Positions 15,968 through 32,786 of a stretch of 64,000 nt of DNA are shown one piece after another. The notes under the pieces were generated by a model. It was not told where the DNA came from, searched no databases, and saw only the letters and a program-made list of their open reading frames with translations. The DNA is from Clostridia bacterium (lineage in GTDB: Bacteria > Bacillota > Clostridia > Oscillospirales > Butyricicoccaceae). Numbering within the stretch: position 1 is the stretch's first letter; the number at the start of each line of letters is the position of its first letter. Position numbers and translations under genes: made by a program. The stretch spans positions 1-64,000 of the forward strand of contig JAQXOO010000002.1 of the NCBI GenBank assembly GCA_029099685.1, given 5' to 3'.

Positions 15968-16867
15968 ATGGAACGGCAACTGGACATCATCGGCATCCAG
16001 ATGGATCTGGGCGCCTCCAAGCGCGGCGTGGCCATGGGGCCCATGGCCATCCGCTACGGCGGCCTGCTGGAGGGGCTGGAGAAGTTGGGTTATACCGTGT
16101 TCGACCGGGGAGATATCGTTCCCCTGCCCCAGGGCCAAAGCCTGCCCAACCTACGGTCCTATGAGCAGGTGGTGGATGTGGACCGGCGCCTGTACGGCCA
16201 GGTGAAGGAAAGCCTGGAACGGGGGCATTTTCCCGTGGTGCTGGGGGGCGACCACAGCATCGCCGCGGGCAGCATCGCCGCCGCGTCCAAGCATTATGAG
16301 GGCCGGGGCGGCATCGGCGTCATCTGGATCGACGCCCACGGCGACTGGAACGACCAGCACAGCACCCCCAGCGGAAATATGCACGGTATGCCCTTTTCCG
16401 CGGTCTGCGGCCATGGGCCGGACTGCATGGTGGACTTCGGCCAGGGGCCGGCTTTTGTGGACGTGCGGCACTGTGTCCAGATCGGCGGCCGGGACATCGA
16501 CGATGAGGAGCGGGTGCGCATGAAAAACGCCGGCGTCACGGTGTTCCCCATCAACGTCATTGACAAATACGGCATGGACGAGGTCATGCGCCGGGCCCTG
16601 GAGGTGGCGGGCGAGGGTACCGCAGGCATCCATCTGAGCTTTGATGTGGACGCCATCACACCGGAAGCGGCTCCCGGCACCGGCACGGTGGTCCACAGCG
16701 GCCTCACCGTGCGGGAGGCGTTTTTGGCGGTGGAGACCCTGGCCGAGAGCGGCAAGCTGGTCAGCCTGGACATGGTGGAGGTCAACCCCATTCTGGACGA
16801 GCGCAACAAGACCGGCATCCTGGCCTCGGAGCTGATCCAGTCGGCTCTGGGCAAAGTGGTATATTGA
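15968..16867 (+). CDS. rocF: arginase
   Basis: MERQLDIIGIQMDLGASKRGVAMGPMAIRY, GGDHSIAAGS, WIDAHGDWN, SFDVDAITPEAAPGTGT. Confidence 0.93.
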   Translation: MERQLDIIGIQMDLGASKRGVAMGPMAIRYGGLLEGLEKLGYTVFDRGDIVPLPQGQSLPNLRSYEQVVDVDRRLYGQVKESLERGHFPVVLGGDHSIAAGSIAAASKHYEGRGGIGVIWIDAHGDWNDQHSTPSGNMHGMPFSAVCGHGPDCMVDFGQGPAFVDVRHCVQIGGRDIDDEERVRMKNAGVTVFPINVIDKYGMDEVMRRALEVAGEGTAGIHLSFDVDAITPEAAPGTGTVVHSGLTVREAFLAVETLAESGKLVSLDMVEVNPILDERNKTGILASELIQSALGKVVY

Positions 16868-16882
16868 AAATGTGAAAAATGC

Positions 16883-16915
16883 GGGCGCGCTGCGGTACTG
16901 CGGTGCGCCTTTTTC
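16883..16915 (+). terminator. Terminator after arginase gene
   Basis: GGGCGCGC TGCGGTACTGCG GTGCGCC TTTTT. Confidence 0.65.
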
Positions 16916-16942
16916 CTGCGTTCCAAGTGCGGGTCGAGAAGT

Positions 16943-16956
16943 AAAGTAAATACTTT
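16943..16956. promoter_or_regulatory. Inverted-repeat operator candidate AAAGTA-AA-TACTTT (copy 1)
   Basis: Identical 15-mer TAAAGTAAATACTTT at 16942-16956 and 30331-30345. Confidence 0.6.
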
Positions 16957-17105
16957 CGTTTTGGGCGTGTTTTTCTCACAATACCACTAAAAATCCCGGG
17001 TATAATTTGATAGATCCTCCAAATTAATCCAAAAATGAAAACATCTGCTTTACCGTCTACACGGGACGTGGTATAATTAGGATAATCTTTCGAGGAGGGA
17101 TCATC

Positions 17106-20075
17106 ATGAAAAAGCGATACCTGGTTTTCCCCATGCTGTTGGCCATGCTGCTGCTGACAGCGTGTAACACATCGGCAGAAAAGAAAATGCTCTACGACGA
17201 GGCGCCTTCCCGCTACGAATACGGCGTATTCGTCAACATGGACCTCAACGCGGGCGATGCCCTCACGGATTATGAGGTGGCATTCAACAATTTTGCCGAC
17301 CGGACGGCCTATGTGTTCTACTCCGAAAAGGGCCAGACGCCGGTGACCGAGCAGATGGCCGGACTGACGGCGGAGGATCTGGCGGCCCTGGCAGCGGAAG
17401 GCAAGGCCCAGGAGATCCGCAGCAACAGCGGCTTCACCCCGCTGTCCAAGACGCTGAAAAGCCTGGAGGGCAGCGACTTCAAGGCTTCTGAAAAGGACCG
17501 ATTCTATTATATCTATGTGGCCTATGACGCGCCGGAGGGCGTGACCGTGGAAAAGGCCGCCCGCTTTTTGACGCCCGCCAAAGGCCCCGACGCGCTGAAA
17601 AAATACAGCGCCTCCTCTGTGGGCGCGATCGTTCCCGCAGGCGGCGCCACCTCCGTGTTTGAGGAGTCCTCCAGCTACTCCCCCGGCTATGTGGATGCCC
17701 TGAAGCAGGGCGCGCTGGAGGCCGGGGTGGAGACGCCCCGCATCGCCGTCATCGAGACCACCATGGGTGCGGAGCAGGCCATGTATGACGACTTCTTCTT
17801 CCCCGACGGCGATTACGCCTCCTTCGGCGACACCCTGCGGGCAAGAGGCATGGAGCCTGTCTATATCCCCCTGGCCATCGACAACTATCGGGAAGTGCAG
17901 AACACCCGGTATTTCGCCGACCTGATCCGCAGCTGCCACATTGTGTTCTTTACCGGCGGCGACCAGGCTTATTACGGACTGGCTCTGGCCAACGCCGACG
18001 GCACGCCGTCTCTGGTGGCTCAGGCCATCACGGATGTGCTGTCCAAAGGCGGCACCCTGGGCGGCAGCAGCGCCGGCGCGGCGGCCATGTCCGGAACGGT
18101 GCTGACCAACGGCGCCTCCGGCTCCTATCAGCCGTTCTACTGGAATGAGGCAGAGACGGTGGACATCACCATCTATGACGCCGAGACCGTGGCAGACAAC
18201 GACACGGTAAACGAGGGCAACAATATGCTCTATCAGAGCATCGGCTTTGTGGAGCCTGTTCTGGGAGAAGACGTTCTGCTGGACACCCATGTGGACGCCC
18301 GGGGCCGGGTGGGACGGCTGATCGCCGGCCTGCGGGATTCCAACCCCGCCGGACTGGGCATCGCTATGGATGAGACCTCCGGTATCCGCATCGACGGCCA
18401 GACCAAGACCGGCACGGTCTTCGGCACCAGCGGTGTCTATATCATTGACGGTGCCAACGCCATCTGGAGCCCGGCCGGCACCGTGGGCGAGTTCGGCGTG
18501 GAGGGCCTGACCATGCACTACCTCACCGCCGGCGACCGCTTTGACTTTGCCGCCAGAACGGTGCTGCCCGCAGAGGACAAGCAGCCTATCACCACCCCTT
18601 CCGGTGCGGTCCACGAGTCCACGGACATTTTCGGCACCGACGAGACCGGCACCACCGTGCTGTCTCTGGCCCACAGCGCCCAGCAGTCTGTGACGGCGGA
18701 GGTGGAAAATGTTTCCACGCCGCCCTTCCTCACCGGAAACAGCTTTACCGTCACCTTCACCAAAACGGCGGACACTGTCTGCTATACCAACGGAAAGCCG
18801 TTCCCCAACGAAAAATACTTTGCGGACTTCCTGCAGACGACCGTTTCCGGCCTGCAGGTGGATATCGCCAGCGGCCCCAGCAAGTTTGACCCCAACGCGG
18901 CCAGCGGCTTTGAGATCCTGTCCGCCGCCACGGAGGACAACGCCTATGCCGTGGGCATCACCTTCTCCGGCCCGCTGAGCGTGGGCTTCGAGGGCAACAA
19001 CAAGTATTTCCTGGACTGCGAGGAAGCGGAGAACATCCCCACCGACTACGTGGAGGTCTATGACGCCTCCGGCGCGGAAAAGCCCCAGGACCGCGTCTAT
19101 ACCTTCCGCATTATGGACGGCAACACCCTCCGCGTGGTGCTGGCGGAAGATGTCTGCTTTGCCGAGGGCGATACCCTGGTGGTCAAGACATCCATCACCA
19201 GTATGTACGGCGAGCAGCCCAGCACGGGCGCGGTGTTCCGCCTCACCGGCGGCCAGTGGGTGCTGGAGGGCGAAGCCGCGGCGCAGCCCTTTGTGGCGGC
19301 TTCCGCTGTTACCGAGGACAATGCATACGCTGTGGATGTGCTGTTCACCGGGCCCCTGAGCGTGGGCTATTCCGGCAGCAACGATTATTTCCTGGACTGC
19401 GGGCAGGCGGAGAACATCCCCACCGATTACGTAGAGGTGCATGACGCTTCCGGCGCGGTGAAAGCGCAGGACCGGACTTATACCTTCAAGATTTTGGACA
19501 AAAACACGCTGCGCATCGTGTTGGTGGATGACGTGTACTTCGCTGAAGGCGACGTGATCGTGCTCAAGACCTCCATCACCAGCGCGGACGGCGCCAACGC
19601 CGCGGAGGATGTGACCTTTACCCTCACCGACGGCCAGTGGGTCCGCAGCGGCGAGACTGTGGTGGAGCCCGCTCCCGAGACGCCTCAGGAGCCTGCCTTT
19701 ACCGGCGAATTCAAGGCGGTGTCCGCAGCCACCGAGGACAATGAGTACGCCGTGGATGTGCTGTTCACCGGTCCCCTGAGCGTGGGCTATTCCGGCAACA
19801 ACGATTATTTCCTGGACTGTGAGCAGGCGGAAAATATCCCCACCGATTACGTGGAGGTCTATGACGCCGCCGGGGCGGTCAAGGAGCAGGACCGGACCTA
19901 TACCTTCAAGATCCTGGACAAGAACACCCTGCGCATTGTGCTGGTGGATGACGTGTACTTCGCCGAGGGCGACAGTATCATTGTCAAGACCACTGTGACC
20001 TGCAGCAACGGTGATAAGGGGGCGGAAGAAGTCCGCTTCACCCTCACCGGCGGCCAGTGGGTCCCGGCCGACTGA
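17106..20075 (+). CDS. exported lipoprotein cyanophycinase-like (peptidase S51) with three C-terminal repeats
   Basis: Lipobox MKKRYLVFPMLLAMLLLTAC; S51 signatures FFTGGDQAYYGLAL and GGTLGGSSAGAAAMSG; C-terminal units AATEDN.YAV...GPLSVG..GNN.YFLDC..AENIPTDYVEV x3. Confidence 0.88.
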   Translation: MKKRYLVFPMLLAMLLLTACNTSAEKKMLYDEAPSRYEYGVFVNMDLNAGDALTDYEVAFNNFADRTAYVFYSEKGQTPVTEQMAGLTAEDLAALAAEGKAQEIRSNSGFTPLSKTLKSLEGSDFKASEKDRFYYIYVAYDAPEGVTVEKAARFLTPAKGPDALKKYSASSVGAIVPAGGATSVFEESSSYSPGYVDALKQGALEAGVETPRIAVIETTMGAEQAMYDDFFFPDGDYASFGDTLRARGMEPVYIPLAIDNYREVQNTRYFADLIRSCHIVFFTGGDQAYYGLALANADGTPSLVAQAITDVLSKGGTLGGSSAGAAAMSGTVLTNGASGSYQPFYWNEAETVDITIYDAETVADNDTVNEGNNMLYQSIGFVEPVLGEDVLLDTHVDARGRVGRLIAGLRDSNPAGLGIAMDETSGIRIDGQTKTGTVFGTSGVYIIDGANAIWSPAGTVGEFGVEGLTMHYLTAGDRFDFAARTVLPAEDKQPITTPSGAVHESTDIFGTDETGTTVLSLAHSAQQSVTAEVENVSTPPFLTGNSFTVTFTKTADTVCYTNGKPFPNEKYFADFLQTTVSGLQVDIASGPSKFDPNAASGFEILSAATEDNAYAVGITFSGPLSVGFEGNNKYFLDCEEAENIPTDYVEVYDASGAEKPQDRVYTFRIMDGNTLRVVLAEDVCFAEGDTLVVKTSITSMYGEQPSTGAVFRLTGGQWVLEGEAAAQPFVAASAVTEDNAYAVDVLFTGPLSVGYSGSNDYFLDCGQAENIPTDYVEVHDASGAVKAQDRTYTFKILDKNTLRIVLVDDVYFAEGDVIVLKTSITSADGANAAEDVTFTLTDGQWVRSGETVVEPAPETPQEPAFTGEFKAVSAATEDNEYAVDVLFTGPLSVGYSGNNDYFLDCEQAENIPTDYVEVYDAAGAVKEQDRTYTFKILDKNTLRIVLVDDVYFAEGDSIIVKTTVTCSNGDKGAEEVRFTLTGGQWVPAD
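18910..20072 (+). repeat. Three tandem ~120-aa repeat units in the cyanophycinase-like lipoprotein
   Basis: Units begin near 18910, 19290 and 19712; units 2 and 3 offset by 420 bp and near identical in sequence. Confidence 0.9.
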
Positions 20076-20083
20076 ACCCAAAG

Positions 20084-20120
20084 AAAAACCGCCGCCGGAT
20101 GAGCTCCGGCGGCGGTTTTT
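20084..20120. terminator. Bidirectional terminator between convergent genes
   Basis: AAAAACCGCCGCCGG ATGAGCT CCGGCGGCGGTTTTT. Confidence 0.9.
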
Positions 20121-20139
20121 GCAGCAAAGATGCGTTTTT

Positions 20140-21018
20140 TCAGGCTTCGGGCTGGATATAGAGCATGACCCAGAGGTCTCCGGGCATGAGATAGCTGCAG
20201 GGCAGCACGCTCATGGCCATGCCGTCTGCCGGGGCCAGGACGGGGGTGCCGTCCACCGTGCCTACCACCTGTCCGGCGGTGAGGGGATCGCCCTTTTTCA
20301 CCTGGGGCATCCACAGGCCGGCGCGGGGGGCGTCAATGTCCAGCAGCGGACCGTAAAAATCCGGAGCGGCACCCTCAACGGCGCCTTCCGCCACGCCTTC
20401 GCTGCGGAGCAGGTCCAGCAGCGCCTGGAAGCACTGGTTGCCCACCGGAAGATTGACGGCGCCGCCGCAGGTGCCGGAGGGCAGCTCGATGATGCAGGCG
20501 GCCTGGTCCCGCTTGCGGGTGGACTCGGTAAAGAGCTGGCCGGGGGTTCCTTCGGAACGGACGGCGATGGGCATGGTGATGCGCTGTACCAGCGTTCGGA
20601 CCTTTTCCGACTCGTTGTATACCGAGAGGATGTAGGGAAGTCCGTGCTGCCCGCAGCAGTGGAGGTCGATGAGGATGTCAGCGCCTTCGGTCTCCCGGTA
20701 CACCAGATCGGCCAGCCGCAGGGCAAAGCTGCCCTGGGGATCCCCGGGGAACACCCGGTTGAGGTCCAGCCCGTCAAAGGGATTGCGGCGCTGCATACAG
20801 CGCATGGCGGTGGTGTTCACTGTGGGAATGACGGAGACGGTGCCCTTCAGCGGGGGGTGGGCGGTGAAATAGTCAATGAGGCGGCGGGCCACATAAACGC
20901 CGGTGACCTCGTTGCCGTGGATGCCCGCCGTAAAGAAGACGTGGGGCGCGCCGCTGCCAAAGGTATGCAGTTCCAGCTGGGACAGCACACCCTGCTCCTG
21001 GATGGTAAGTGTTTTCAT
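20140..21018 (-). CDS. succinylglutamate desuccinylase/aspartoacylase (M14-like) family; candidate CphZ-type beta-Asp-Arg hydrolase
   Basis: FFTAGIHGNEVTGVYVARRL (HxxE zinc motif), DLNRVFPGD, ILIDLHCCG, PADGM swivel-like C-terminus. Confidence 0.85.
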   Translation of the reverse strand: MKTLTIQEQGVLSQLELHTFGSGAPHVFFTAGIHGNEVTGVYVARRLIDYFTAHPPLKGTVSVIPTVNTTAMRCMQRRNPFDGLDLNRVFPGDPQGSFALRLADLVYRETEGADILIDLHCCGQHGLPYILSVYNESEKVRTLVQRITMPIAVRSEGTPGQLFTESTRKRDQAACIIELPSGTCGGAVNLPVGNQCFQALLDLLRSEGVAEGAVEGAAPDFYGPLLDIDAPRAGLWMPQVKKGDPLTAGQVVGTVDGTPVLAPADGMAMSVLPCSYLMPGDLWVMLYIQPEA

Positions 21019-21078
21019 AAATTGACCTCCTTGTGGGGATATGGTATACTGAAAAAAACGATTGAAACGGTGAAAAAG

Positions 21079-21495
21079 ATGGCTGGATTTGTAATGAAAA
21101 AAGTGCTGTGGCACGGTGGCATCGGCCTGCTGATCTGGCTGGTGCTGGAACGGTTCTCTGTGCTGGGGCGCATCTATGCCGGTTGGTTTGCCGGGCTGAT
21201 GGGCGCCTGTTATCTGCTGGTGGCCTGGCTCAACTGGCTCAAGACCCGGGGCACGGACCTGGGCAGGCTGCTCCGCAGAAAGCGGCCGCCCCGGGTACCC
21301 TATTACCTGCGGGGCGCGGACAAGTTCGTCCGGCCCCGGCTGGGCATTGGGGGCAACCGCCACACCTTTGAGGATGATCTTCCCGAGGCGGCGGAACGAC
21401 CGGAGGACGGCCTGGACCGGCAGCAGACTCTTCGGGGCAGGGCCGCGGCTTTTGCCGTGGTGGGAGTGCTGCTGCTGATCCTTTCGGCGTTTTAA
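21079..21495 (+). CDS. hypothetical membrane protein
   Basis: MAGFVMKKVLWHGGIGLLIWLVLERF... N- and C-terminal TM helices. Confidence 0.65.
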   Translation: MAGFVMKKVLWHGGIGLLIWLVLERFSVLGRIYAGWFAGLMGACYLLVAWLNWLKTRGTDLGRLLRRKRPPRVPYYLRGADKFVRPRLGIGGNRHTFEDDLPEAAERPEDGLDRQQTLRGRAAAFAVVGVLLLILSAF

Positions 21496-21509
21496 AAAAC
21501 ATACAGCAG

Positions 21510-21537
21510 GAGCGGCAGAGCGTTGGCTCTGCCGCTC
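21510..21537. terminator. Hairpin between convergent genes
   Basis: GAGCGGCAGAGC GTTG GCTCTGCCGCTC. Confidence 0.7.
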
Positions 21538-21543
21538 GTTTGT

Positions 21544-22728
21544 TCAGATCGCCACTTCCACCGAGCGGATGCGGAGCCCGACGTTGGTAAAGGAGGTGTG
21601 GTCACGCCGGTACCCCGCGGTATCGGGGCGGCGGAGGTAATCCAGCTTCACCAGGAAGGTCCTGCCGTGGACGTCATAGGCCACCGCGCCGTGGATGCAG
21701 GGCAAGCCGCTTTCGGCGTCGGTCTCCAGAGAGGCATCTACGCCGCGCAGCAGCTTTTCCTCGATCATGCCGTCAAAAACAGGACTGTTGATGATGCCGT
21801 CGTTGATATAATCGGGATAAAAATCCTTGTCCTTTGCAGGAGTGGGCTGAGCCAGACACACCGCGCCGGAGGCGGTGTCATAGCTGTCGCCCTGATGCAG
21901 GGCATGGAGCACCACGCCCCGGTAGCAGCCGTTTCCAGTCTGTTCCGCCGCCCGGCAGTCCACCAGATAAACGCCCGCGCTGCCAAGGACCTGGATGCTG
22001 CCCTGGTGATAGACAAGAGCGGTATCCTCGGAGACGGCATAACCCATGCGGACGCCCTCCCGGTTGCTGAAGCAGGCCTGGATCAGGCGCATCAGGCGGG
22101 GACGCTTGTTGAAGTGCTGGTCCACGATGCCCTCGGTGAAGAAGCCCAGGCCCTGGCACAGCAGCAGGGGGTCACAGGGGTCGTCCTTTTCGCACTGCTC
22201 ATCATAATCTGCATAGCCATAAATCACCGGTCCCGCCAGAACGCCCCGGTTGTTGCCGCTTCCGATCATTACCCGGCTCATGATGGCTGCGCCCGCACTG
22301 GAGCCGCCGATGACGCCGCCGTTGGTGTAGATCTCCCGCAGACGGGTCAGCAGCGCGGTGTCGGAGCCGTCGGGACGGATCAGGCACTGATTGGTAAAAT
22401 ACTGGTCGCCGCCGGTGAACCACACGCCGGTGACGCCGTCCAGGCAGCTGCACAGGCCCTCTGCGTCGCCGGTCATGGCGTTATAGCCCCGCTCATCCCG
22501 GACGTGCTGGGCATAGATCGGCACCAGGATGCAGTTTTCCGCGGGCAGGCCCAGCCGGACCAGGTCCTCCCGGTAAGAGCGGAACAGCGCGTCCGGTCCT
22601 TCGCCGGAGGCTGTGACGATAAAGGCGATCTTGCTTCGGGGTCCGCCCGCCTTTTCGATCAGCGCGGAAAACACCTGGTCTGCGCTGGCGCGCAGGCCGC
22701 CGCCGACGATCAGTAACGTTCCTTTCAT
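21544..22728 (-). CDS. cphB: cyanophycinase (peptidase S51), no signal peptide
   Basis: MKGTLLIVGGGLRASADQVF..., VWFTGGDQYFTNQCL, GGVIGGSSAGAAIMSRVMI; 395 aa. Confidence 0.88.
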   Translation of the reverse strand: MKGTLLIVGGGLRASADQVFSALIEKAGGPRSKIAFIVTASGEGPDALFRSYREDLVRLGLPAENCILVPIYAQHVRDERGYNAMTGDAEGLCSCLDGVTGVWFTGGDQYFTNQCLIRPDGSDTALLTRLREIYTNGGVIGGSSAGAAIMSRVMIGSGNNRGVLAGPVIYGYADYDEQCEKDDPCDPLLLCQGLGFFTEGIVDQHFNKRPRLMRLIQACFSNREGVRMGYAVSEDTALVYHQGSIQVLGSAGVYLVDCRAAEQTGNGCYRGVVLHALHQGDSYDTASGAVCLAQPTPAKDKDFYPDYINDGIINSPVFDGMIEEKLLRGVDASLETDAESGLPCIHGAVAYDVHGRTFLVKLDYLRRPDTAGYRRDHTSFTNVGLRIRSVEVAI

Positions 22729-22751
22729 GATTGCACTACCTCTTCTTTCTA

Positions 22752-24128
22752 TCATTCTACCCGCCGGAAGGGAAGCCACATGGCCAGGTCAGAGGTCATG
22801 ACTTCCAGCCCGCCGGGCGCGGGTCTCAAACGCATCCAGTCCGGGATGGCGTCTTCCTCGCAGGCGAGGGCGGTGCCGTCGGGCTGAAGGGTCACAGCGG
22901 CGCGGAAATTGCCGTATTCCAGGGTGGCATTTCCCTGGCCGCAGGTGACTGTAAAATCATCATAGGCCGGATGGGAAAACCGGCCGCAAAACTGCGGGAT
23001 CTCCTTTTCGCCCAGCGGGGCGCCGGCGTGGGCGGCGGAAAGCACCTCGCTGCCGCCGGACATGGCCTGCCGCCATTCCTCGATCTGGGGAGCGATGTCC
23101 CGGGCAGGCGCGCCGCAAAGCTCGTCCAGAAGCACGTCCCGCAGGATGGCGGCGCCCCAGGTGGAACTGGTGTTCAGCAGAATGACAAAGCCGCTGTTCT
23201 CCTCCGGGAAAAAGGCCACATGGGAATTGAAGCCCTGAATGGAACCGCCGTGGGAGATCAGCCTGCGCCCGCGGTAGGCGCTGGTGCGCCAGCCAAGGGC
23301 ATAGCCGCAGGCCAGCTCCGCGCCGCCGCCGTCATCTGTGGGGATGTTTGCAGAGGTCAGCTGCCGGAACCTCTCCTCCGTGCACAGGGGCGCACCCTGC
23401 CGCAGCAGGCAGCGGAGCCAGGCCACCATGCCCTTCAGGTTGGTGCGGATGCCGCCGCAGGGCCCGGCCACATGGTTATCGGCGTAATTACAGCGGTAGC
23501 TGCCGCCCCGGCAGTCGGTGCGGTAGGGAAGGGCGCAGTCCAGCCCGGAAAAATCGCAGTCCCGGCCGCGGAAACGCATCTCCATGCCCAGCGGTCCGGC
23601 GATCTCGTCCAGAACAGCCTGCTTCCAGGGCTTTTGAAAGATCGCTTCCATCACGTGTCCCAGGACGATGAAGCCCTGGTTGTTGTAGCGGTAGCTTTCA
23701 CGAAAGCCCCGGTCCATTTCCATATAGCGGGTGCGCTGGGCCATGTCCCCGATGGAGGAATAGACCTTTGCCCGCATGAATTCGTGCCGGGCCAGACCGG
23801 TGCGGTGACAGCCGAAGTCCCGGCAGGTGACATGGGCGCCGGCATAGGGGTCGGTCATGGTGAAATCGGGCAGATAGGTCCGGACCGGCGCGTCCCAGTC
23901 CAAAAGGCCCCTGTCTGCCGCCACTGCCCCCAGCATGGCGGTAAAGGCCTTGCTGTTGGAGGCGATGTCAAAAAAAGAGCGCTCGGTGACGGGCCGTCCG
24001 GTCTCCCGGTCGGCCAGGCCGAAGCATTCGGTGCGAAGGACGCCCCGGCGGATGACGGCAAAGGCGCCGCCCACCAGTCCGGTGGCCGCCTGCAAAGCGC
24101 GCACGGCCTCGGTTTCCCATTGCGTCAC
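22752..24128 (-). CDS. serine hydrolase, class C beta-lactamase family
   Basis: FDIASNSKAFTAMLGA (SxxK), YRYNNQGFIVLG (YxN), LISHGGSIQGF (HxG). Confidence 0.92.
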   Translation of the reverse strand: MTQWETEAVRALQAATGLVGGAFAVIRRGVLRTECFGLADRETGRPVTERSFFDIASNSKAFTAMLGAVAADRGLLDWDAPVRTYLPDFTMTDPYAGAHVTCRDFGCHRTGLARHEFMRAKVYSSIGDMAQRTRYMEMDRGFRESYRYNNQGFIVLGHVMEAIFQKPWKQAVLDEIAGPLGMEMRFRGRDCDFSGLDCALPYRTDCRGGSYRCNYADNHVAGPCGGIRTNLKGMVAWLRCLLRQGAPLCTEERFRQLTSANIPTDDGGGAELACGYALGWRTSAYRGRRLISHGGSIQGFNSHVAFFPEENSGFVILLNTSSTWGAAILRDVLLDELCGAPARDIAPQIEEWRQAMSGGSEVLSAAHAGAPLGEKEIPQFCGRFSHPAYDDFTVTCGQGNATLEYGNFRAAVTLQPDGTALACEEDAIPDWMRLRPAPGGLEVMTSDLAMWLPFRRVE

Positions 24129-24195
24129 AGGCTCCCCTCCTTTCTAAAATGATGGGGAGCGGCCTGACGACACGCTCCCCGGGGAGAGAGGTTTT

Positions 24196-26175
24196 TTATT
24201 GGATCTGTTCCCGATAGCGCTCCAGCTCGGCGTTGTTCGCCCAGATGAAGTGGCCGGGCAGGACCTCGGCCCAGAAGGGCTGGTCCGTGGAATAATCATG
24301 GATAGAGGGGTCGTAGACCACCACCTGCTTGTCCCGCTCCACATCGGGGTCGGGCTGGGGGGCGGCCTGGAGCAGGGCGTTGGTGTAGGGGTGCAGCGGA
24401 TGGGCAAACAGCTCCTCCGACTCCGCCAGTTCCACCATCTGCCCCTTGTACATGACGGCGATGCGGTCGGAGATGAACCGGACCACGCTCAGGTCGTGGG
24501 CGATGAACAGATAGGTAAAGCCCTTTTCCCGCTTGAGTTGGTTCAGCAGGTTGATGACCTGGGCGCGGATGGACACATCCAGGGCGGAGATGGGCTCGTC
24601 GGCCACGATGAACTCCGGCTCCACCACAAGCGCCCGGGCGATGCCGATGCGCTGCCGCTGGCCGCCGGAAAACTCGTGGGGGAAGCGGGTGACATATTCC
24701 GGAAGCAGGCCGACGCTGCGCATGGCCTCGGCCACCTTGTTCTTCCGCTCGGAATCGTGCTTGAACAGATGGAAGTTGTAAAGACCTTCCGAAATGATGT
24801 ATTCCACCTTGGCGCGCTCGTTCAGCGAAGCCATGGGATCCTGGAAGATCATCTGGGCGCTTTTGCGGAAGGCCGTCATTTCATGATTGGACAGCTTGCC
24901 CGTGATGGGCTTGCCCTTATACAGGATCTCGCCGCCGCTGCTGTGGCAGATCTTCAGGATGGCCTTGCCGATGGTGGTCTTGCCCGAGCCGGACTCGCCC
25001 ACCAGGGACAGGGTCTCGCCCCGGTGAATATCGAAGGTGACATTTTTGACGGCCTTGAACTCACCGCGGCCCAGTTTGAACTTTACGGTCAGGTCCTTGA
25101 CCTGGACCAGCTTTTCCGCGTTGGAAAAGTCGATGGGCGGCGCGGGCTGCTCCTTGGAACGGACGGCGTTTTTCAGTTCCAGCTCACGGTTGTATTCCGC
25201 GGCCTTGTCACACAGCAGCCAGGTCTTTGCGTAGTGGGTGTCGGTGACCTTGAAGAAGGGCGGCTCATAGAGATAGTCGATCTTCATGGCGTCGGGGTTG
25301 CGGGGGGCGAAGGCGTCGCCCACGATCTCCTTGTACAGGTTGGGAGGAGAACCCTTGATGGACCGGAGGTCATGACCGCGAACACCCAGCTGGGGCAGAG
25401 ACTGCAGCAGCGCCTTGGTATAGGGATGGCGGGCGTCCTTAAAGATCTCGTTGGCCAGGCCGTGTTCCACGATCTGACCGGCGTACATGACGGCCACCCG
25501 GTCGGCCACATTGGCCACCACGCCCAGGTCGTGGGTGATGTAGATGACCGACATATCCAGTTCCTTCTGCAGGCGCTTGATGAGCGCCAGGATCTGGGCC
25601 TGCACCGTTACATCCAGGGCGGTGGTGGGCTCGTCGCAGATGAGGATCCTGGGCCGGCAGGCGATGGCGGTGGCGATGACCACCCGCTGCCGCATACCGC
25701 CGGAAAACTGGTGGGGATACTGCTTGTACCGCAGCTCGGGGTCGGGGATGCCCACCTGCCGCAGCAGTTCGATGGCCTCCTGCTTGGCCTTTTCCTTATC
25801 GGTGCCGAAATGCCAGGTGATGACCTCGCGGATCTGCTCGCCCACGGTTTTCACCGGGTTCAGAGAGGTCATGGGGTCCTGAAAGACCATAGCGATCTTT
25901 TTGCCGCGGACCTGCAGCCACTCTTTTTCGGTGGAATATTGGGAAAAATCCACCCCGTCCATCACCATGCTGCCGCTTTCCACCCAGCCGTTTTTGTCCA
26001 GCATACCGATGAAGGATTTGGTGAACACACTCTTGCCGGAGCCGGATTCCCCAACGATGGCCAGTGTCTCGCCCTGGTACAGGTCGATGGATGCCCCGCG
26101 GATGGCGGTGAGGGTCTTGCCGCGAAGATTGAACTTGATGACAACGTCTTTTGCTTCAAAAATCTTTTCTCTCAT
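24196..26175 (-). CDS. oligopeptide ABC transporter, fused double ATPase (OppD-OppF type)
   Basis: Two complete NBDs: [16 protein letters not shown] / [14 protein letters not shown] and [16 protein letters not shown] / [14 protein letters not shown]. Confidence 0.95.
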
Positions 26176-26190
26176 AGTCGACGCCTCACC

Positions 26191-27135
26191 TTACAGATGG
26201 TTTTTCGGGTCGGACGCGTCCGCGAACTTGTTGCCGATGATGTAGAAGGACACGGTGATAAAGCAGAGGATCAGCGTGGGGCAGATCATCTGGAAGGGGT
26301 ACACCAGGAAGGCGCTGCGCCCCTGGTTCACCAGGTTGCCCAGGGTGCAGATATCCGCCGGCAGGCCCACGCCGATATAGCTGAGGAACACCTCGGAGCC
26401 GATGGAGGAGGGGATGGTCAGCGCGGCATCCATAATGATCAGGCTCACCAGATGGGGGATGACGTTTTTGGTGATGATCCGCCGGGTGGGGGTCTTCAGA
26501 CAGATGGAGGCGATGTTGTAGTCCACCTCACGCAGGGCCAGGATGCGGCTGCGGAACCAGCGGGCCTCGCTGATCCAGCCGGTGGCCACCAGCGCGATGA
26601 TGATGGTGAAGATGCTGGGTTTCATGATGTAGGCGATCAGCACCAGGTAAATGGTACTGGGAACGTTGGTCAGGGTGTTGTAGATGGCGAACATCACGGT
26701 GTCCAGCTTTCTGTAAAAGCCCCACAAAGCGCCGATGATGACGCCCAGGCCCACCTGAAACACGGCTACGGCAATGCTCAGCAGCAGAGAGGTGCGGGTG
26801 CCGAACCAGACACGGGCCCAGATATCCCGGCCCACGCCGTCGGTGCCGAACAAATGCTCAGCGGAAGGGGGCTGGTTCCAGTCCCGGGCGGAAAGGGAAA
26901 CGGTGTAGGGATCCAGGTCGGTGACCATGGGATAGATGATGGTATAGGCGGCCATCAGCGCCACCAGGGCCACGATGATCTTGACGGTGTGGCTTTTGAA
27001 AAAGGTGCGGATGGTGCTGCGCCAGTAGGAGTAGTTGGAAAAGCCGGTGTCTTCCAGCTGTTCCTCGTGGAATTCCGCCTGGGTGAACAGGTCCTGAGGC
27101 AGCTGGTCCAGCTCCGGGGTCTTGTTTGTATCCAT
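26191..27135 (-). CDS. oligopeptide ABC transporter permease (OppC type)
   Basis: SAEHLFGTDGVGRDIWARVWFGTRTSLLLSIAV. Confidence 0.93.
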   Translation of the reverse strand: MDTNKTPELDQLPQDLFTQAEFHEEQLEDTGFSNYSYWRSTIRTFFKSHTVKIIVALVALMAAYTIIYPMVTDLDPYTVSLSARDWNQPPSAEHLFGTDGVGRDIWARVWFGTRTSLLLSIAVAVFQVGLGVIIGALWGFYRKLDTVMFAIYNTLTNVPSTIYLVLIAYIMKPSIFTIIIALVATGWISEARWFRSRILALREVDYNIASICLKTPTRRIITKNVIPHLVSLIIMDAALTIPSSIGSEVFLSYIGVGLPADICTLGNLVNQGRSAFLVYPFQMICPTLILCFITVSFYIIGNKFADASDPKNHL

Positions 27136-27147
27136 GGTGAAACCTCC

Positions 27148-28101
27148 TCAGTCGTTGCTGTCCACGAGCTTGATCCGGGGATCCACAAAGGAGACCAGGA
27201 TATCGCCCAGGAATACGCCGAAAACGGACAATGCGCCGTATACCAGCACCAGAACCTGCACCATGGGGTTGTCCATGGCTTTGATGGATTTAATGAGCAG
27301 GCCGCCGGTGCCGGGGATGGAGTACATACTTTCAATGACCAGTGAGCCGGACAGCATCATCAGAAAATCCGAAGGGATGTTGATGGCGATGGGAACGATG
27401 GCGTTGCGGAACACGTGCCGCCACATGATGTATTTCTGGGGAAGGCCCTTGACACGGGCGAACTTGATGTATTCCTTGTTTTCCTCATCCACGATGTACC
27501 GGCGCAGCCAGACGCCGTAGCCCGCGATGCTGCCGATGGACATGGAGATGGTGGGCAGGATCCAGGAGATGGGATCCTCCATATAGAACAGCATAGGCAG
27601 GCCGAACCATTTGGAAAAGAACACCTGGATAAAGAAGTGGATGATGATGGAAGGGACTGCCCGGATGATGACCACGTAGACCGTGCCCAGCTTGTCGGGC
27701 AGACCGCCCTTGCTGCGGGCCATGGCTACGCCCAGGGGCAGGCCGATGGCGGCGGAAATGAACCAGGATATTATGTTCAGCAGCAGGGAGTAGGGGATCT
27801 TTTCCGCCAGAATACCGTTGATGGGGGAGTTGGGGTAAAGGGTGATGCTCCGCCCCAGATCACCGTGGAACAGGTTGACCACGAAGTTCTTGAGCTGTAC
27901 CGGCATAGGCTCCAATACGCCCATGTTGCGGAGATAAGCGGTCTTTTCGGTATCCGTCATGTCTTTCCACTGCTCTTTGGTAAAATAGCCCGCCGTGGGC
28001 ATGAACCGGAGCAGCGTAAAGACCACCAGCATCACGAGAATGATGGTGACGATGGCCTGACCCAGCTTGGATAACAGATAGCGTCCCATTTGGTACCTCA
28101 T
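27148..28101 (-). CDS. oligopeptide ABC transporter permease (OppB type)
   Basis: MGRYLLSKLGQAIVTIILVMLVVFTLLRFMP..., FFIQVFFSKWFGLP. Confidence 0.93.
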   Translation of the reverse strand: MRYQMGRYLLSKLGQAIVTIILVMLVVFTLLRFMPTAGYFTKEQWKDMTDTEKTAYLRNMGVLEPMPVQLKNFVVNLFHGDLGRSITLYPNSPINGILAEKIPYSLLLNIISWFISAAIGLPLGVAMARSKGGLPDKLGTVYVVIIRAVPSIIIHFFIQVFFSKWFGLPMLFYMEDPISWILPTISMSIGSIAGYGVWLRRYIVDEENKEYIKFARVKGLPQKYIMWRHVFRNAIVPIAINIPSDFLMMLSGSLVIESMYSIPGTGGLLIKSIKAMDNPMVQVLVLVYGALSVFGVFLGDILVSFVDPRIKLVDSND

Positions 28102-28104
28102 TTC

Positions 28105-28132
28105 ACGAGAGGGGACGTTAAAAACGTCCCCT
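28105..28132 (-). terminator. Intercistronic hairpin between oppA-like and oppB-like genes
   Basis: AGAGGGGACGTT AAA AACGTCCCCTCT; no strong T run after it on the minus strand, so may act as attenuator/mRNA stabiliser. Confidence 0.55.
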
Positions 28133-28154
28133 CTATATGGCTTGTGTTGTCAGA

Positions 28155-30104
28155 TCAGTTGGCCAGAGCAGCCTTTTCGCTGTTGTAGGCCTGGGTCAGC
28201 GCGTCAAACTCAGCGGCGGTGATGGGTTCCTCACGGATGAGCGCGCCCTTCATCTTGTGGCGGCCCATGCCGAAATAACCGCCGGGCACGGTGTAGGGCA
28301 CGATGCGGGTCATGTTGTAGGAGCCGCCGCCGGTCATGTAGGGCTTCAGGTAAGCGTGCTCCAGCAGCCAGGCTTCCGCTTCGGAATAGGCCTCATAGCG
28401 GGCGTTGATGTCATACAGCGAGGAGGCCTTGGCGATCATGGCATCATACTCGGGGATGTCGTAGTAGCTGGTGGTGACGTCATAGTCGCTGACGCAGCGG
28501 TCCAGGTTGGCGGAGGGGTCCGCATAGCGGAAGCCATAGCTGTCATCCACCAGGTCCCAGTTGCCCAGGTCGTAGACATCAGCGCTGAAGCTGTTGGTGG
28601 AATAGCCCAGGATCACGTTGATATACTCGGTGCCCAGATAGGTCTCCAGCATCTGCTTCACCAGAGTGGCCTTCTTCATTTCGCTGTCAGAGGTGCCGGA
28701 GGAATAGACGATGTCGATGGGGAACTTGCCGTCCACGGTAAACTCCGTCACAGGCAGCATATCCACCGCGCCGGGGGTGACGCCCTTCAGGGTAACGCCG
28801 TCGGCTTCGCACAGCTCCTTGACAGCCTCGGCCATATAGCCCTTGGCGGTTTCCGCGTTGAAAGGATCCACGTTCTTGTAGGGGGCCAGGGCGGGGTAGT
28901 CGGTGTAGTCCTTGCCGTTTTCATCAAACATGCAGTTTTCGGGCAGCAGGGTGAAGCGGCAGAAGAACTCGGGATCGTTGGGCTCCCAGATGGCGGACAG
29001 GGTCACAGCGTCAATGGCGGTGAAGATGGCCTTGCGGAAGTTTTCGTTCTGCACGGCGGCTGCCATCTCGGGGTTCTTGGTGTCAAAGTTGAAGGAATAC
29101 CAATAGGTAGTGACGGTCTTTTCGGACAGGTACACGTACTGCTCCCATTCAGAGCCGCGGACGCTGGCCACTTCTTCAGAGGACAGGGAGGTGGAAGTGA
29201 TGTTGCCGCGCTCGAACATTTCCAGACGGGAGATACCGTCAGAGACGAACTCCCAGCTCAGGGTGTCGATGGTCAGGTTGTCATAATCCCAGTAATGGGA
29301 GTTCTTGGTCAGGACGACCTTCTTGTCCAGCTCCCAGTCGGAGATATAGTAGCCACCGTTGTAGAGCATCTTGTCCTTGGCGATGCCGAAGTCCTCGCCC
29401 ACGGTGTCCAGGAAGGCCTGCTTCACGGGGAGCAGCAGGTCCAGCTGCACATAGGACAGGAAATAGGGGAAGGAGCCGTCCAGGGTGTACTGCACGGTCA
29501 GCTCATCCAGAGCCTTGACGCCCACGGTCTCGTCGAAGGTGGCCTCGGCGGCTTCGCGGGTCATGCTGGTCTCGGTGCCGTCGTCGATGTCCACCAGCAG
29601 GTAATAGTAGTCATACAGGCCGGCGATGACGCTGCGGATGGTGCTGAAGCTGCTGGCGGAGTGGTTGGGCTCTGCCACATAGCGGAGGCCGCTGACAAAG
29701 TCATCTGCGGTGACCTTGTATTCGGTCTTGGCGCCGGTGTGGTCCACCCAGTACAGGTCGGGCTTCAGCTTAAAGGTCCAGACGCTGAAGTCATCGTTGT
29801 GCTCCCAGCTTTCAGCCAGGCAGGGGACCGCGCGGCCGTAGCGGTCGGTCTCCACCAGACCCTCCACCAGGTTGGAAATAAAAACATAGTCAGAAGTGCC
29901 CTTGGTGGTATAGGGGTTCATGGAGGTGATAGGGGAGGAGAAGGTGGATTTGTACTCTTTCAGGTAAGTTGCGTTGGGATCGGGCTGGCCCGTGGCCACG
30001 TCGCCGCCACTGGGGGCGGGTGATGCGGGGTCCTTCTGGCCGCAGCCGGCCAGAGCGCCCATCAGCATGAGAGCGGCCAACAGCAAGGCGATGGTTTTCT
30101 TCAT
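28155..30104 (-). CDS. peptide ABC transporter substrate-binding lipoprotein (SBP family 5)
   Basis: MKKTIALLLAALMLMGALAGCGQK lipobox; SITSMNPYTTKGTSDYVFISNLVEGLVETDRYGRAVPCLAESWE. Confidence 0.95.
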   Translation of the reverse strand: MKKTIALLLAALMLMGALAGCGQKDPASPAPSGGDVATGQPDPNATYLKEYKSTFSSPITSMNPYTTKGTSDYVFISNLVEGLVETDRYGRAVPCLAESWEHNDDFSVWTFKLKPDLYWVDHTGAKTEYKVTADDFVSGLRYVAEPNHSASSFSTIRSVIAGLYDYYYLLVDIDDGTETSMTREAAEATFDETVGVKALDELTVQYTLDGSFPYFLSYVQLDLLLPVKQAFLDTVGEDFGIAKDKMLYNGGYYISDWELDKKVVLTKNSHYWDYDNLTIDTLSWEFVSDGISRLEMFERGNITSTSLSSEEVASVRGSEWEQYVYLSEKTVTTYWYSFNFDTKNPEMAAAVQNENFRKAIFTAIDAVTLSAIWEPNDPEFFCRFTLLPENCMFDENGKDYTDYPALAPYKNVDPFNAETAKGYMAEAVKELCEADGVTLKGVTPGAVDMLPVTEFTVDGKFPIDIVYSSGTSDSEMKKATLVKQMLETYLGTEYINVILGYSTNSFSADVYDLGNWDLVDDSYGFRYADPSANLDRCVSDYDVTTSYYDIPEYDAMIAKASSLYDINARYEAYSEAEAWLLEHAYLKPYMTGGGSYNMTRIVPYTVPGGYFGMGRHKMKGALIREEPITAAEFDALTQAYNSEKAALAN

Positions 30105-30204
30105 ACAAAACACTCCTTTTTATTTGTGTCTTTTTCTGTTGGTTCTGTCAACTTGCCAAGCTTAAAAATGTTTACTATATGCTATCACAAACGCGTTTGA
30201 AAGT

Positions 30205-30223
30205 AAAGCAAAAACTTTGCTTT
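30205..30223. promoter_or_regulatory. Perfect inverted repeat AAAGCAAA-AAC-TTTGCTTT in the divergent oppA/rpiR intergenic region
   Basis: 8-bp perfect arms, 3-nt spacer; adjacent 12-bp palindrome CAAACGCGTTTG at 30188-30199. Confidence 0.5.
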
Positions 30224-30331
30224 TCACGCGTTTTGTGAAGAATAGTAAAACAAATGATTGAAAATTTGGCCATTTTCACAGATATTTTTTGAAGCCGGGG
30301 GCTTGATTTTGCGTTCATTGTTGGATAAAAT

Positions 30332-30345
30332 AAAGTAAATACTTT
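30332..30345. promoter_or_regulatory. Inverted-repeat operator candidate AAAGTA-AA-TACTTT (copy 2)
   Basis: Identical to copy upstream of the lipoprotein cyanophycinase. Confidence 0.6.
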
Positions 30346-30346
30346 A

Positions 30347-31270
30347 ATGATGGGTCCAATTCCGATCATGCGGAGGAGACTGACCGTGGGAGCCTTGGAA
30401 GAACTATTTGAAAACAGAGACAAACTGACCAACAAGCAATGCGCCATTGCTGATTATATTATGAGTGCGCCGGATGAAGTGGCCTACATGACCCTGCGGG
30501 AGCTGAGCCAGCGGGTGGGTGCTTCGGAGGTCTCCATTCTGCGAATGTGCCACGCCGTGGGGCTGGAAAGCTTTGTGGAGCTGAAAAAGGTGCTGCGCCA
30601 GCACAACAGCCAGCAGCTGCGCCGGGCCGCGCCGCCGGTCTTCCTCTCCCGGGAGGAGGACCGCAACCTGAATGACCGGGAGGTCATGCTGTCTGCCGTC
30701 TGTCAGGATGAACTGCACAACCTGCAGGAAATGATGAACGGACTGGACCATGAAAAGCTGTTCGCCTGCGCCCAGGGATTGCTGGAGGCGGATGAAGTGG
30801 CCGTCTTTGCCCATGATGCTTCTTTCCTGTTCGCGGAATATCTGGCCTACCGTCTGAATTTCCTGCGCATCAAGAGCCGCAGCTATAAAATCGGCGACAG
30901 CGATTCCGTCCAGACGGCGCTGGCCCGCTTGGGCAAGCGGGATTATGTGATCCTGCTGTCTTTCCCGCCCTATCACCAGCCCATCGTCAATCTGGTGAAC
31001 TTTTGCCGTTACCGCGGGGTGCGGATGATGACCATTACGGACAGCAATGAATCCCCCGCCGCGGTGGAGGACAGCAGCGTCTTCCTGTGCCGGACGTCGG
31101 CGCGCTATTATTACAATTCCCAGGCGGCCACCGCCAGCTTTATCAACATCCTTTCCTCCTGTATCGCCCACAGCCTGGGCGCCCGGTTCGATGAGATCCT
31201 CAGCCAGGAACGGGAGGTCGGCAGCTTTATCTTTACCGATACCAATGACGAGAAAAAAGGCTCTGTGTGA
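30347..31270 (+). CDS. MurR/RpiR-family transcriptional regulator (HTH + SIS domain)
   Basis: LTNKQCAIADYIMSAPDEVAYMTLRELSQRVGASEVSILRMCHAVGLESFVELKK; true start may be 30368 or later. Confidence 0.92.
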   Translation: MMGPIPIMRRRLTVGALEELFENRDKLTNKQCAIADYIMSAPDEVAYMTLRELSQRVGASEVSILRMCHAVGLESFVELKKVLRQHNSQQLRRAAPPVFLSREEDRNLNDREVMLSAVCQDELHNLQEMMNGLDHEKLFACAQGLLEADEVAVFAHDASFLFAEYLAYRLNFLRIKSRSYKIGDSDSVQTALARLGKRDYVILLSFPPYHQPIVNLVNFCRYRGVRMMTITDSNESPAAVEDSSVFLCRTSARYYYNSQAATASFINILSSCIAHSLGARFDEILSQEREVGSFIFTDTNDEKKGSV

Positions 31271-31310
31271 GTCTGAGCCAAAACAAAACCATCCTGGTTT
31301 AGGAGGTTCT

Positions 31311-32468
31311 ATGCTGAAACTTTGGAAAAATTGTAATGTTTACGCACCCGCGTACCTGGGCCTGCGGGATATCCTGATGGAAGGCGGGCGGATCGCCGCG
31401 GTGGGCGAAGACCTGAGCGACTGGGAACGCGCGCCTGAGATCGAGGTGCGGGACCTGGGCGGTGCCATCGTCTGCCCGGGACTGATCGACCTGCACGTCC
31501 ATGTCACCGGCGGAGGCGGAGAGCAGGGACCGGCCTCCCGCACGCCGGAACTGCAGCTCACCGATTTCACCCGGAACGGCGTTACGTCTGTTGTGGGCCT
31601 GCGGGGCACCGACGGTATCTCCCGCAGTCTGGAAAACCTGCTGGCAAAGTGCCGCGCCCTGGAGGAGGAGGGCATCTCCACCTGGATGCTCACCGGAAAC
31701 TACCGCTATCCCGTGGAGACCATCACCGGGGACGCGGCCCGGGACATGACCCTTATCGATAAGGTCATCGGTGTCAAGCTGGCGCTGGCGGACCACAGAA
31801 GTTCCGCGGTCACCGGCCAGGAGCTGGCTCGGCTCGGCTCTGAGGCCCGGGTGGGCGGTATGCTCGCGGGCAAGCCCGGCCTGGTGGTGATCCATATGGG
31901 CGGCTCCCCGCGGCGGATGGCGGACCTGTTCTGGGCGCTGGAGCACTCGGATGTGCCGCCCCGCAACTTCCTGCCCACCCACTGCTGCCGTTCACCGGAA
32001 CTGGTGGCCGACGCCGTGCGCTTTAACCGGATGGGCGGGACCATCGATTTTACCGCCGACCTGCCCGGAAACGAACCGGGAACGGCCGCGGTCCTGTGCG
32101 CGGCTCTGCGCCAGGGCGCCGATCCCGGCCGGATCACCATGAGCAGCGACGCTGGCGGCAGCCAGCCCATCTTTGACAGCACGGGCGAGTGCATCGGCCT
32201 GGGCACCACCACCAGCGCGACGCTGCTGCAGGAGCTGCGTCGGATGCTGTCCCGGGAGGGCCTGCCGCTGGAGACCGCTTTGCGCTTCTTCACGGAAAAT
32301 CCCGCGCGGGTGCTGGGACAGAGCCGCCGAAAGGGCGCCGTCGCCCCCGGCGCGGACGCGGATCTTCTGGTGCTGAGCGAAGATTACCAGGTGCGTCACG
32401 TGATGGCCAAGGGCCGGGAGGCCGTCTGGGACGGACAGGCCGTTCTGAAAGGTAAATTTGAAAGCTGA
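31311..32468 (+). CDS. iadA: beta-aspartyl (isoaspartyl) dipeptidase
   Basis: CPGLIDLHVHVTGGGGEQGPASRTPELQLTDFTRNGVTSVVGLRGTDGISRS..., HMGGSPRRM, MSSDAGGSQPIFD; AGGAGGTT RBS. Confidence 0.93.
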   Translation: MLKLWKNCNVYAPAYLGLRDILMEGGRIAAVGEDLSDWERAPEIEVRDLGGAIVCPGLIDLHVHVTGGGGEQGPASRTPELQLTDFTRNGVTSVVGLRGTDGISRSLENLLAKCRALEEEGISTWMLTGNYRYPVETITGDAARDMTLIDKVIGVKLALADHRSSAVTGQELARLGSEARVGGMLAGKPGLVVIHMGGSPRRMADLFWALEHSDVPPRNFLPTHCCRSPELVADAVRFNRMGGTIDFTADLPGNEPGTAAVLCAALRQGADPGRITMSSDAGGSQPIFDSTGECIGLGTTTSATLLQELRRMLSREGLPLETALRFFTENPARVLGQSRRKGAVAPGADADLLVLSEDYQVRHVMAKGREAVWDGQAVLKGKFES

Positions 32469-32497
32469 AGCCTTCCGCTCTCTCCGGATGTGCAGAT

Positions 32498-32543
32498 GAT
32501 AGAAAAACACGGGCTGCCCTTGGGGCAGCCCGTGTTTTCTATC
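32498..32543. terminator. Bidirectional terminator
   Basis: GATAGAAAA-ACACGGGCTGCCC TTG GGGCAGCCCGTGTTTTCTATC. Confidence 0.85.
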
Positions 32544-32594
32544 GCGGTGAAGAGCGCGCCTATAGGGTGGCTCTGGCGGCCCTTTCAGGGCCGG

Positions 32595-32786
32595 TCACAC
32601 TTCACTTTTGTCGGGAAAAACGATGGCGCAGACGATATAGGCGATCAGGGCGGCGCCCCAGGCGAAGCAGCCCACGCCCCAGATCACACGGACGATGGTG
32701 GGGTCGATGTCGAAATACTCGGCCACGCCGGCGCACACGCCGCACAGCATTTTCTTTTCCCGGTTTTTATAGATCCTCTTTTTCAT
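32595..32786 (-). CDS. PspC-domain protein
   Basis: MKKRIYKNREKKMLCGVCAGVAEYFDIDPTIVRVIWGV. Confidence 0.9.
   Translation of the reverse strand: MKKRIYKNREKKMLCGVCAGVAEYFDIDPTIVRVIWGVGCFAWGAALIAYIVCAIVFPDKSEV

Follow-up and report, generated by a model that had tools for sequence, protein, structure and literature searches.

A predicted membrane-anchored cyanophycinase with C-terminal repeats in a probable cyanophycin-scavenging island of a Clostridia bacterium

Cyanophycin is a nitrogen-storage polymer made by microbes, built on a poly-Asp backbone whose side chains each bear an Arg. Intracellular cyanophycinases of the CphB type (3en0, 7uqv) have the S51 fold, a catalytic triad and a substrate pocket, and they carry neither export signal nor repeats; the extracellular CphE enzymes of Pseudomonas anguilliseptica BI and P. 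alcaligenes DIP1 (CphEal) are exported S51 proteins with a Ser-His-Glu triad and the same pocket, in which Thr stands in place of CphB Gln173. CphEal, the extracellular enzyme that has been studied, is a secreted protein of ~45 kDa encoded by 1260 bp, and combines the Gln-to-Thr exchange with conservation of the other pocket residues (PMC3235067). For the subsequent hydrolysis of the dipeptides, a 2023 paper (PMC10206079) reports that M14/AspA-family enzymes, among them the cyanophycin dipeptide hydrolase CphZ, fill the isoaspartyl dipeptidase role in Proteobacteria, that few IadA or IaaA proteins occur among cphA1-bearing Firmicutes, and that the isoaspartyl dipeptidases of Firmicutes and Bacteroidota have yet to be discovered. 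The same paper describes clusters of cyanophycinase and isoaspartyl dipeptidase genes in genomes that lack cphA1, and cites cyanophycin-degrading bacteria known from digestive tracts.

The locus described here lies in a 64,000-nucleotide stretch of DNA, analysed as a whole and referred to below as the window (Table 1). Like the clusters of cphA1-less genomes (PMC10206079), it places cyanophycinase and iadA genes together in a genome without cphA; unlike them, it adds an Opp importer, an RpiR regulator, a second cyanophycinase and an M14 enzyme, and its host is an uncultured, anaerobic Firmicute. We consider it likely that the locus is an island sufficient in itself for scavenging cyanophycin, with a membrane-anchored extracellular cyanophycinase acting first.

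Table 1. Features of the predicted cyanophycin island, in window coordinates
Feature	Position	Strand	Basis
Probable cyanophycin-scavenging island, ~15.7 kb, between arginase and DUF4097 gene	16868..32597	.	Collinearity with G003, G005
Palindrome AAAGTA-AA-TACTTT, candidate RpiR operator, upstream of secreted cyanophycinase	16943..16956	+	Window motif scan
Sigma-70-like promoter TTTACC-17 bp-TATAAT	17049..17077	+	Read in sequence; consensus match only
CphE-type secreted lipoprotein cyanophycinase	17106..20075	+	ORF, TIGR02069, PDB match, residue alignments
Predicted signal peptide, lipobox LTAC, Cys20	17106..17165	+	Sequence; Cys kept in G007 and G076
S51 domain	17616..18590	+	Alignments against residues listed in PMC3235067
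Probable Ig-like repeat 1 (residues 604-720)	18915..19265	+	
Probable Ig-like repeat 2 (residues 731-847)	19296..19646	+	
Probable Ig-like repeat 3 (residues 871-987)	19716..20066	+	
M14/AstE-AspA-type metallopeptidase, candidate beta-Asp-Arg hydrolase	20140..21018	-	PF24827 83 bits
Second, cytosolic cyanophycinase	21544..22728	-	TIGR02069 140.5 bits (cut-off 126.6); residues conserved
Serine hydrolase with class C beta-lactamase fold (optional)	22752..24128	-	PF00144 170.6 bits
OppDF fused ATPases	24196..26175	-	
OppC and OppB permeases	26191..28101	-	
OppA peptide-binding lipoprotein	28155..30104	-	PF00496 150 bits
Operator-like element related to the palindrome, OppA side of divergent region	30200..30218	+	
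Palindrome, second copy, immediately 5' of rpiR	30332..30345	+	Conserved in G076
RpiR-family regulator (HTH_6 and SIS)	30347..31270	+	
IadA isoaspartyl dipeptidase	31311..32468	+	TIGR01975 420.9 bits (cut-off 331.25)
Likely terminator at island end: GC-rich hairpin between A/T runs	32504..32538	.	Read in sequence

The gene for the secreted enzyme has an ATG start and an intact frame encoding 989 aa, whose N-terminus, MKKRYLVFPMLLAMLLLTAC, reads by eye as a signal peptide with lipobox LTAC and Cys20; these predicted elements constitute the export signal expected of the extracellular CphE type. An N-terminal region of ~145 aa (about residues 25-165) precedes the S51 domain (approximately residues 171-495), and a connecting region of ~108 aa (residues 496-603) leads to three C-terminal repeats of 117 aa each. 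This architecture agrees with an earlier note, made from the sequence alone, which had described a lipoprotein of ~990 aa with an S51 domain and three C-terminal repeats; it differs from that of CphEal in the lipid anchor, the additional N-terminal and connecting regions, and the three probably Ig-like repeats. The idea that the N-terminal region and residues 496-603 are themselves degenerate repeats was rejected, as comparison of both regions with the repeats by hhalign gave no detectable relatedness. A 1099-aa ORF on the opposite strand of the gene was judged to be a shadow frame arising from the GC-rich coding sequence, and a full-length AlphaFold model of the protein, built from three sequences, was uninformative (pLDDT 43).

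Catalytic residues were located by aligning the protein to cyanophycinases of solved structure and to the CphB proteins of two genomes of the same family (G081 and G082), whose genes neighbour cphA. The closest PDB chain to the secreted protein is the cyanophycinase 7uqv (E=1.8e-14), and its score against the cyanophycinase model TIGR02069 is 76.2 bits, under the equivalog cut-off of 126.6, for which reason we file it as a CphE-type relative and not as a TIGR02069 equivalog. The triad is formed by Ser322, His395 and Glu423, in GxSxG, DxH and E contexts, and the pocket by Gln287, Asp393, Thr394, Arg399, Arg401 and Arg404, where Gln287, Asp393, Arg399, Arg401 and Arg404 correspond to CphB Gln101, Asp172, Arg178, Arg180 and Arg183. 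Triad and pocket residues are conserved in both S51 proteins of the island, with one difference: the residue preceding the catalytic His is Thr394 in the secreted enzyme, invariant in all three orthologues, and not the Gln of CphB (Gln173), which the cytosolic paralogue retains. As judged from the alignment, Thr394 is the most specific evidence for an enzyme of the extracellular CphE type. The proposal in the earlier note that this is an exported cyanophycinase is well supported by the lipobox, the full triad and pocket, the CphE-type Thr, and the clustering of the gene with IadA, an importer and a second cyanophycinase.

These residues also bear on the identity of the substrate. The target of both S51 enzymes and the importer could instead be a different polymer of isoaspartyl or aspartyl peptides, or isoaspartyl peptides derived from damaged protein, as would fit the promiscuity of IadA-type enzymes (PMC10206079), the score of the secreted protein under the TIGR02069 cut-off, and the existence in three genomes (G083, G084 and G077) of an island core without the secreted enzyme. 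We regard this as improbable, given that the full cyanophycinase pocket (Gln, Asp and three Arg) is present in both proteins, that the cytosolic one scores above the equivalog threshold, and that the exported one has the CphE-type Thr.

The M14, cytosolic cyanophycinase, serine hydrolase and Opp genes lie on the opposite strand, convergent with the gene for the secreted enzyme, and are followed by the divergent RpiR and IadA genes. The M14 product exceeds the 25-bit threshold for PF24827, which places it in the M14/AstE-AspA group, and relatives at the corresponding place in other genomes are 49-72% identical. It resembles CphZ in belonging to the same broad AstE/AspA family and in clustering with cyanophycinases, but in the PDB it matches other members of that family best (3cdx); the gene is a candidate for the isoaspartyl dipeptidase role. 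The serine hydrolase, possibly an extra peptidase or esterase, is present in G007 (L004) and missing at the corresponding place in G076 (L026), and is therefore an optional member of the island. The cytosolic cyanophycinase has a C-terminal extension of ~100 aa, found also in G007, G076, G083, G084 and G077 and absent from the CphB of G081 and G082. A second IadA is encoded elsewhere in the genome (G000 contig C11:19071-20195, 374.5 bits) and shares 43% identity with the IadA of the island.

No cyanophycin synthetase (cphA) is detectable in the genome, which is 96% complete and whose best TIGR02068 score is 134 bits against a cut-off of 850; searches of G007 and G076 for cphA, and of this genome for IaaA, likewise found none. 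That the genes turn over the bacterium's own cyanophycin store is for this reason hardly credible, the more so as one of the enzymes is exported and an importer lies within the island, even though a storage organism would also need IadA and a cytosolic cyanophycinase, and a cphA-cphB-iadA arrangement does exist elsewhere in the family (G081). The simplest interpretation is that the bacterium feeds on cyanophycin produced by other organisms. Within the family cphA is found only in G081 and G082, where it lies beside cphB, the G082 copy being cut by a contig end; in these members of a sister genus (L031:3420-7968 and L030, respectively) it forms an ordinary cphA-cphB storage cluster, with iadA in addition in G081.

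The genomes of two relatives, G003 (a close one) and G005, are collinear with the window on either side of the island (FolD 86-87% identical). The G003 match ends at window position 16865, directly after the arginase gene, and restarts at 32678, with ~2.5 kb of other sequence between, while the G005 match ends at 15928, after the CDF gene, and restarts at 32598. By this collinearity up to its edges, the island is a discrete unit of ~15.7 kb and the arginase an ordinary neighbour. Arginase (15968-16867) had been considered as a pathway member and was rejected, since G003 has the same gene at that position but lacks the island. A search of the borders for direct repeats found no long ones, the sole find being an 11-bp inverted match.

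Full-length orthologues of the secreted enzyme are present in 2 of the 86 other family genomes: G007, on a contig of the MAG RUG14283 (Ruminococcaceae), with four repeats, and G076, with three. The gene set of the island recurs in both, but there the secreted cyanophycinase comes last, after the M14 gene, in an orientation that differs from that of the window; the G007 contig starts within OppB, and the G007 IadA is on a separate contig. The secreted enzymes of G007 and G076 are 80% identical, and either is 70-71% identical to that of the window. G007 belongs to the window's genus and G076 to another, and this closer mutual similarity, despite the shared genus, suggests lateral transfer of the island. 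G083 and G084 (L027, L028) encode Opp, cytosolic S51, M14, RpiR and IadA proteins, and a short contig of G077 (L029) the S51 and M14 proteins and the end of an Opp gene, in each case without the secreted enzyme. The occurrence of this importer/S51/M14 core by itself means that the core may serve another or a pre-digested substrate; the hosts may live on dipeptides that others release.

The proposed regulation rests on a palindrome, AAAGTA-AA-TACTTT, which occurs at exactly two sites in the 64 kb, even with one mismatch allowed, against 0.02 expected. One site precedes the gene for the secreted cyanophycinase by 150 bp, the other stands directly before the RpiR gene, and the palindrome is kept in the corresponding region of G076. 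Sharing it ties the secreted enzyme to the island regulator, although the gene orientation is not that of G007 and G076, and the RpiR protein would be expected to bind it.

In the pathway that we infer from these features, with its substrate, transport and regulation and above all its role for the repeats, the surface S51 domain would cut insoluble cyanophycin into beta-Asp-Arg dipeptides outside the cell, while the repeats would most probably extend away from the cell and keep the polymer, or some other surface, close to the enzyme. OppA with OppBCDF would take up dipeptides and short oligomers, the cytosolic cyanophycinase would trim the latter after import, and beta-Asp-Arg would then be cleaved to Asp and Arg by IadA, perhaps together with the M14 enzyme. 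Control of both transcription units would fall to the RpiR protein, acting through the common palindrome. If this is true, cyanophycin is a nutrient passed between anaerobes, and within one family some genomes carry cphA and others the consumer island. Since one compact locus holds the pair of cyanophycinases, IadA, the M14 candidate, the importer and the regulator, both the pathway and the idea of polymer binding are testable with few purified proteins.

The three repeats align without gaps. Repeats 1 and 2 are 66% identical in protein sequence, 1 and 3 are 66% and 2 and 3 are 80%, with corresponding DNA identities over the whole units of 70%, 72% and 82%; the description of units 2 and 3 as "almost identical" in the earlier note was therefore overstated. 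As direct DNA repeats of 300 nt, two copies match the reference copy at 73% and 84% identity, far above chance. The earlier note did not recognise the family, and sequence searches matched it to none: Pfam searches with every member of the repeat alignment gave no relevant family, Ig-like families included, even at E<=10, and the repeats matched no PDB chain by sequence (best E=1.4). The suggestion that the repeat be sought outside S51 proteins was followed by running repeat profiles against 391 genomes from the class and 399 from the phylum, which returned no convincing relative outside the secreted-cyanophycinase gene. Matches in G596, G707, G787 and G1080 were short, with borderline E-values, and were rejected, the inspected frames (the L046 frame left out) being unlike the repeat; the sole exception among the frames inspected for weak matches, in L041, is a short generic match. 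The viral contigs searched held no relative of the repeats, and the plasmids searched showed S51-domain similarity to annotated cyanophycinases only. Among the 87 family genomes searched the repeats are present in three, always within the secreted cyanophycinase.

A structural model of a single repeat, built from ten sequences, is of moderate confidence (pLDDT 71.9, pTM 0.66). Because its structural neighbours in Foldseek are mostly Ig-like beta-sandwiches, albeit none better than E=0.0025, we call the repeats Ig-like, and they probably adopt such a fold. AlphaFold and Foldseek, proposed in the earlier note as a check on the repeat, have in this way indicated a likely fold through generic neighbours, none below 0.001, and an Ig-like fold by itself predicts no ligand. 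Like bacterial Ig-like domains, such as the Bap C region (7dm0), the repeats are arranged in tandem and surface-exposed, and the model suggests a beta-sandwich for them as well, but they differ in having no relevant Pfam or PDB sequence match and in a long conserved loop, YFLDC...NxPTxY. This loop lies in columns 22-60 of the alignment (SVGYxGxNxYFLDCxxAxNxPTxYVEVxDAxG onward), a stretch that makes up one third of the length and accounts for 24 of the 52 invariant positions: 24/39 columns are invariant there against 28/78 in the rest (p=0.011, a generous value, as the region was picked after viewing the alignment).

The suggestion of the earlier note that these unrecognised repeats may bind polymer granules or the cell surface is thus supported by half, as regards the lack of a matching sequence family. 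Because the repeat model looks like a generic Ig-like beta-sandwich, polymer binding is a matter of inference, though a plausible one, and we put forward tentatively that the repeats bind the cyanophycin substrate. With the lipid anchor at the N-terminus and the repeats at the C-terminus, the latter cannot act as a stalk that raises the enzyme off the membrane, and on this argument from topology they more likely contact the substrate or another surface; their distal placement and the highly conserved loop favour a binding role, and neither proves it. The acidity of the repeats was rejected as evidence for binding of an Arg-rich polymer because OppA, a lipoprotein encoded in the island as well, has much the same acidity. 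It is quite conceivable, and about as probable as substrate binding, that the enzyme is as described above and that the repeats are a passive Ig-like tail (a spacer, a stability module or a means of cell-wall association) without affinity for cyanophycin: Ig-like folds are common generic extracellular modules, the Foldseek neighbours are of that generic kind, the number of repeats varies from three to four, and their charge matches that of the other secreted protein of the locus. Such a tail sits less easily with repeats that lie distal to the lipid anchor and could give the enzyme no stalk, with the excess of invariant columns around the loop, even for a region chosen post hoc, and with a family seen, in the searched genomes, solely in this enzyme. 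The fuller proposal, in which the repeats found a new family of modules for binding cyanophycin and the island is a dedicated cyanophycin-utilisation locus of anaerobic Firmicutes, with a second beta-Asp-Arg hydrolase, of M14 type, such as is reported to be still undiscovered in that phylum, is doubtful as a whole; if true, the repeats would be for cyanophycin what carbohydrate-binding modules are for polysaccharides.

The repeat units look homogenised within one gene, where they number three to four (L026:13199-14332 in G076, L004:9432-10937 in G007). In G076, nucleotides 79-195 of the repeats share 92-97% DNA identity when unit 1 is compared with unit 2 and ~97% when unit 2 is compared with unit 3, and the last 78 nt are 49-59% identical between units, the pattern expected of concerted evolution by gene conversion. 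In every repeat pair tested dN is lower than dS, with ratios from ~0.07 to 0.74.
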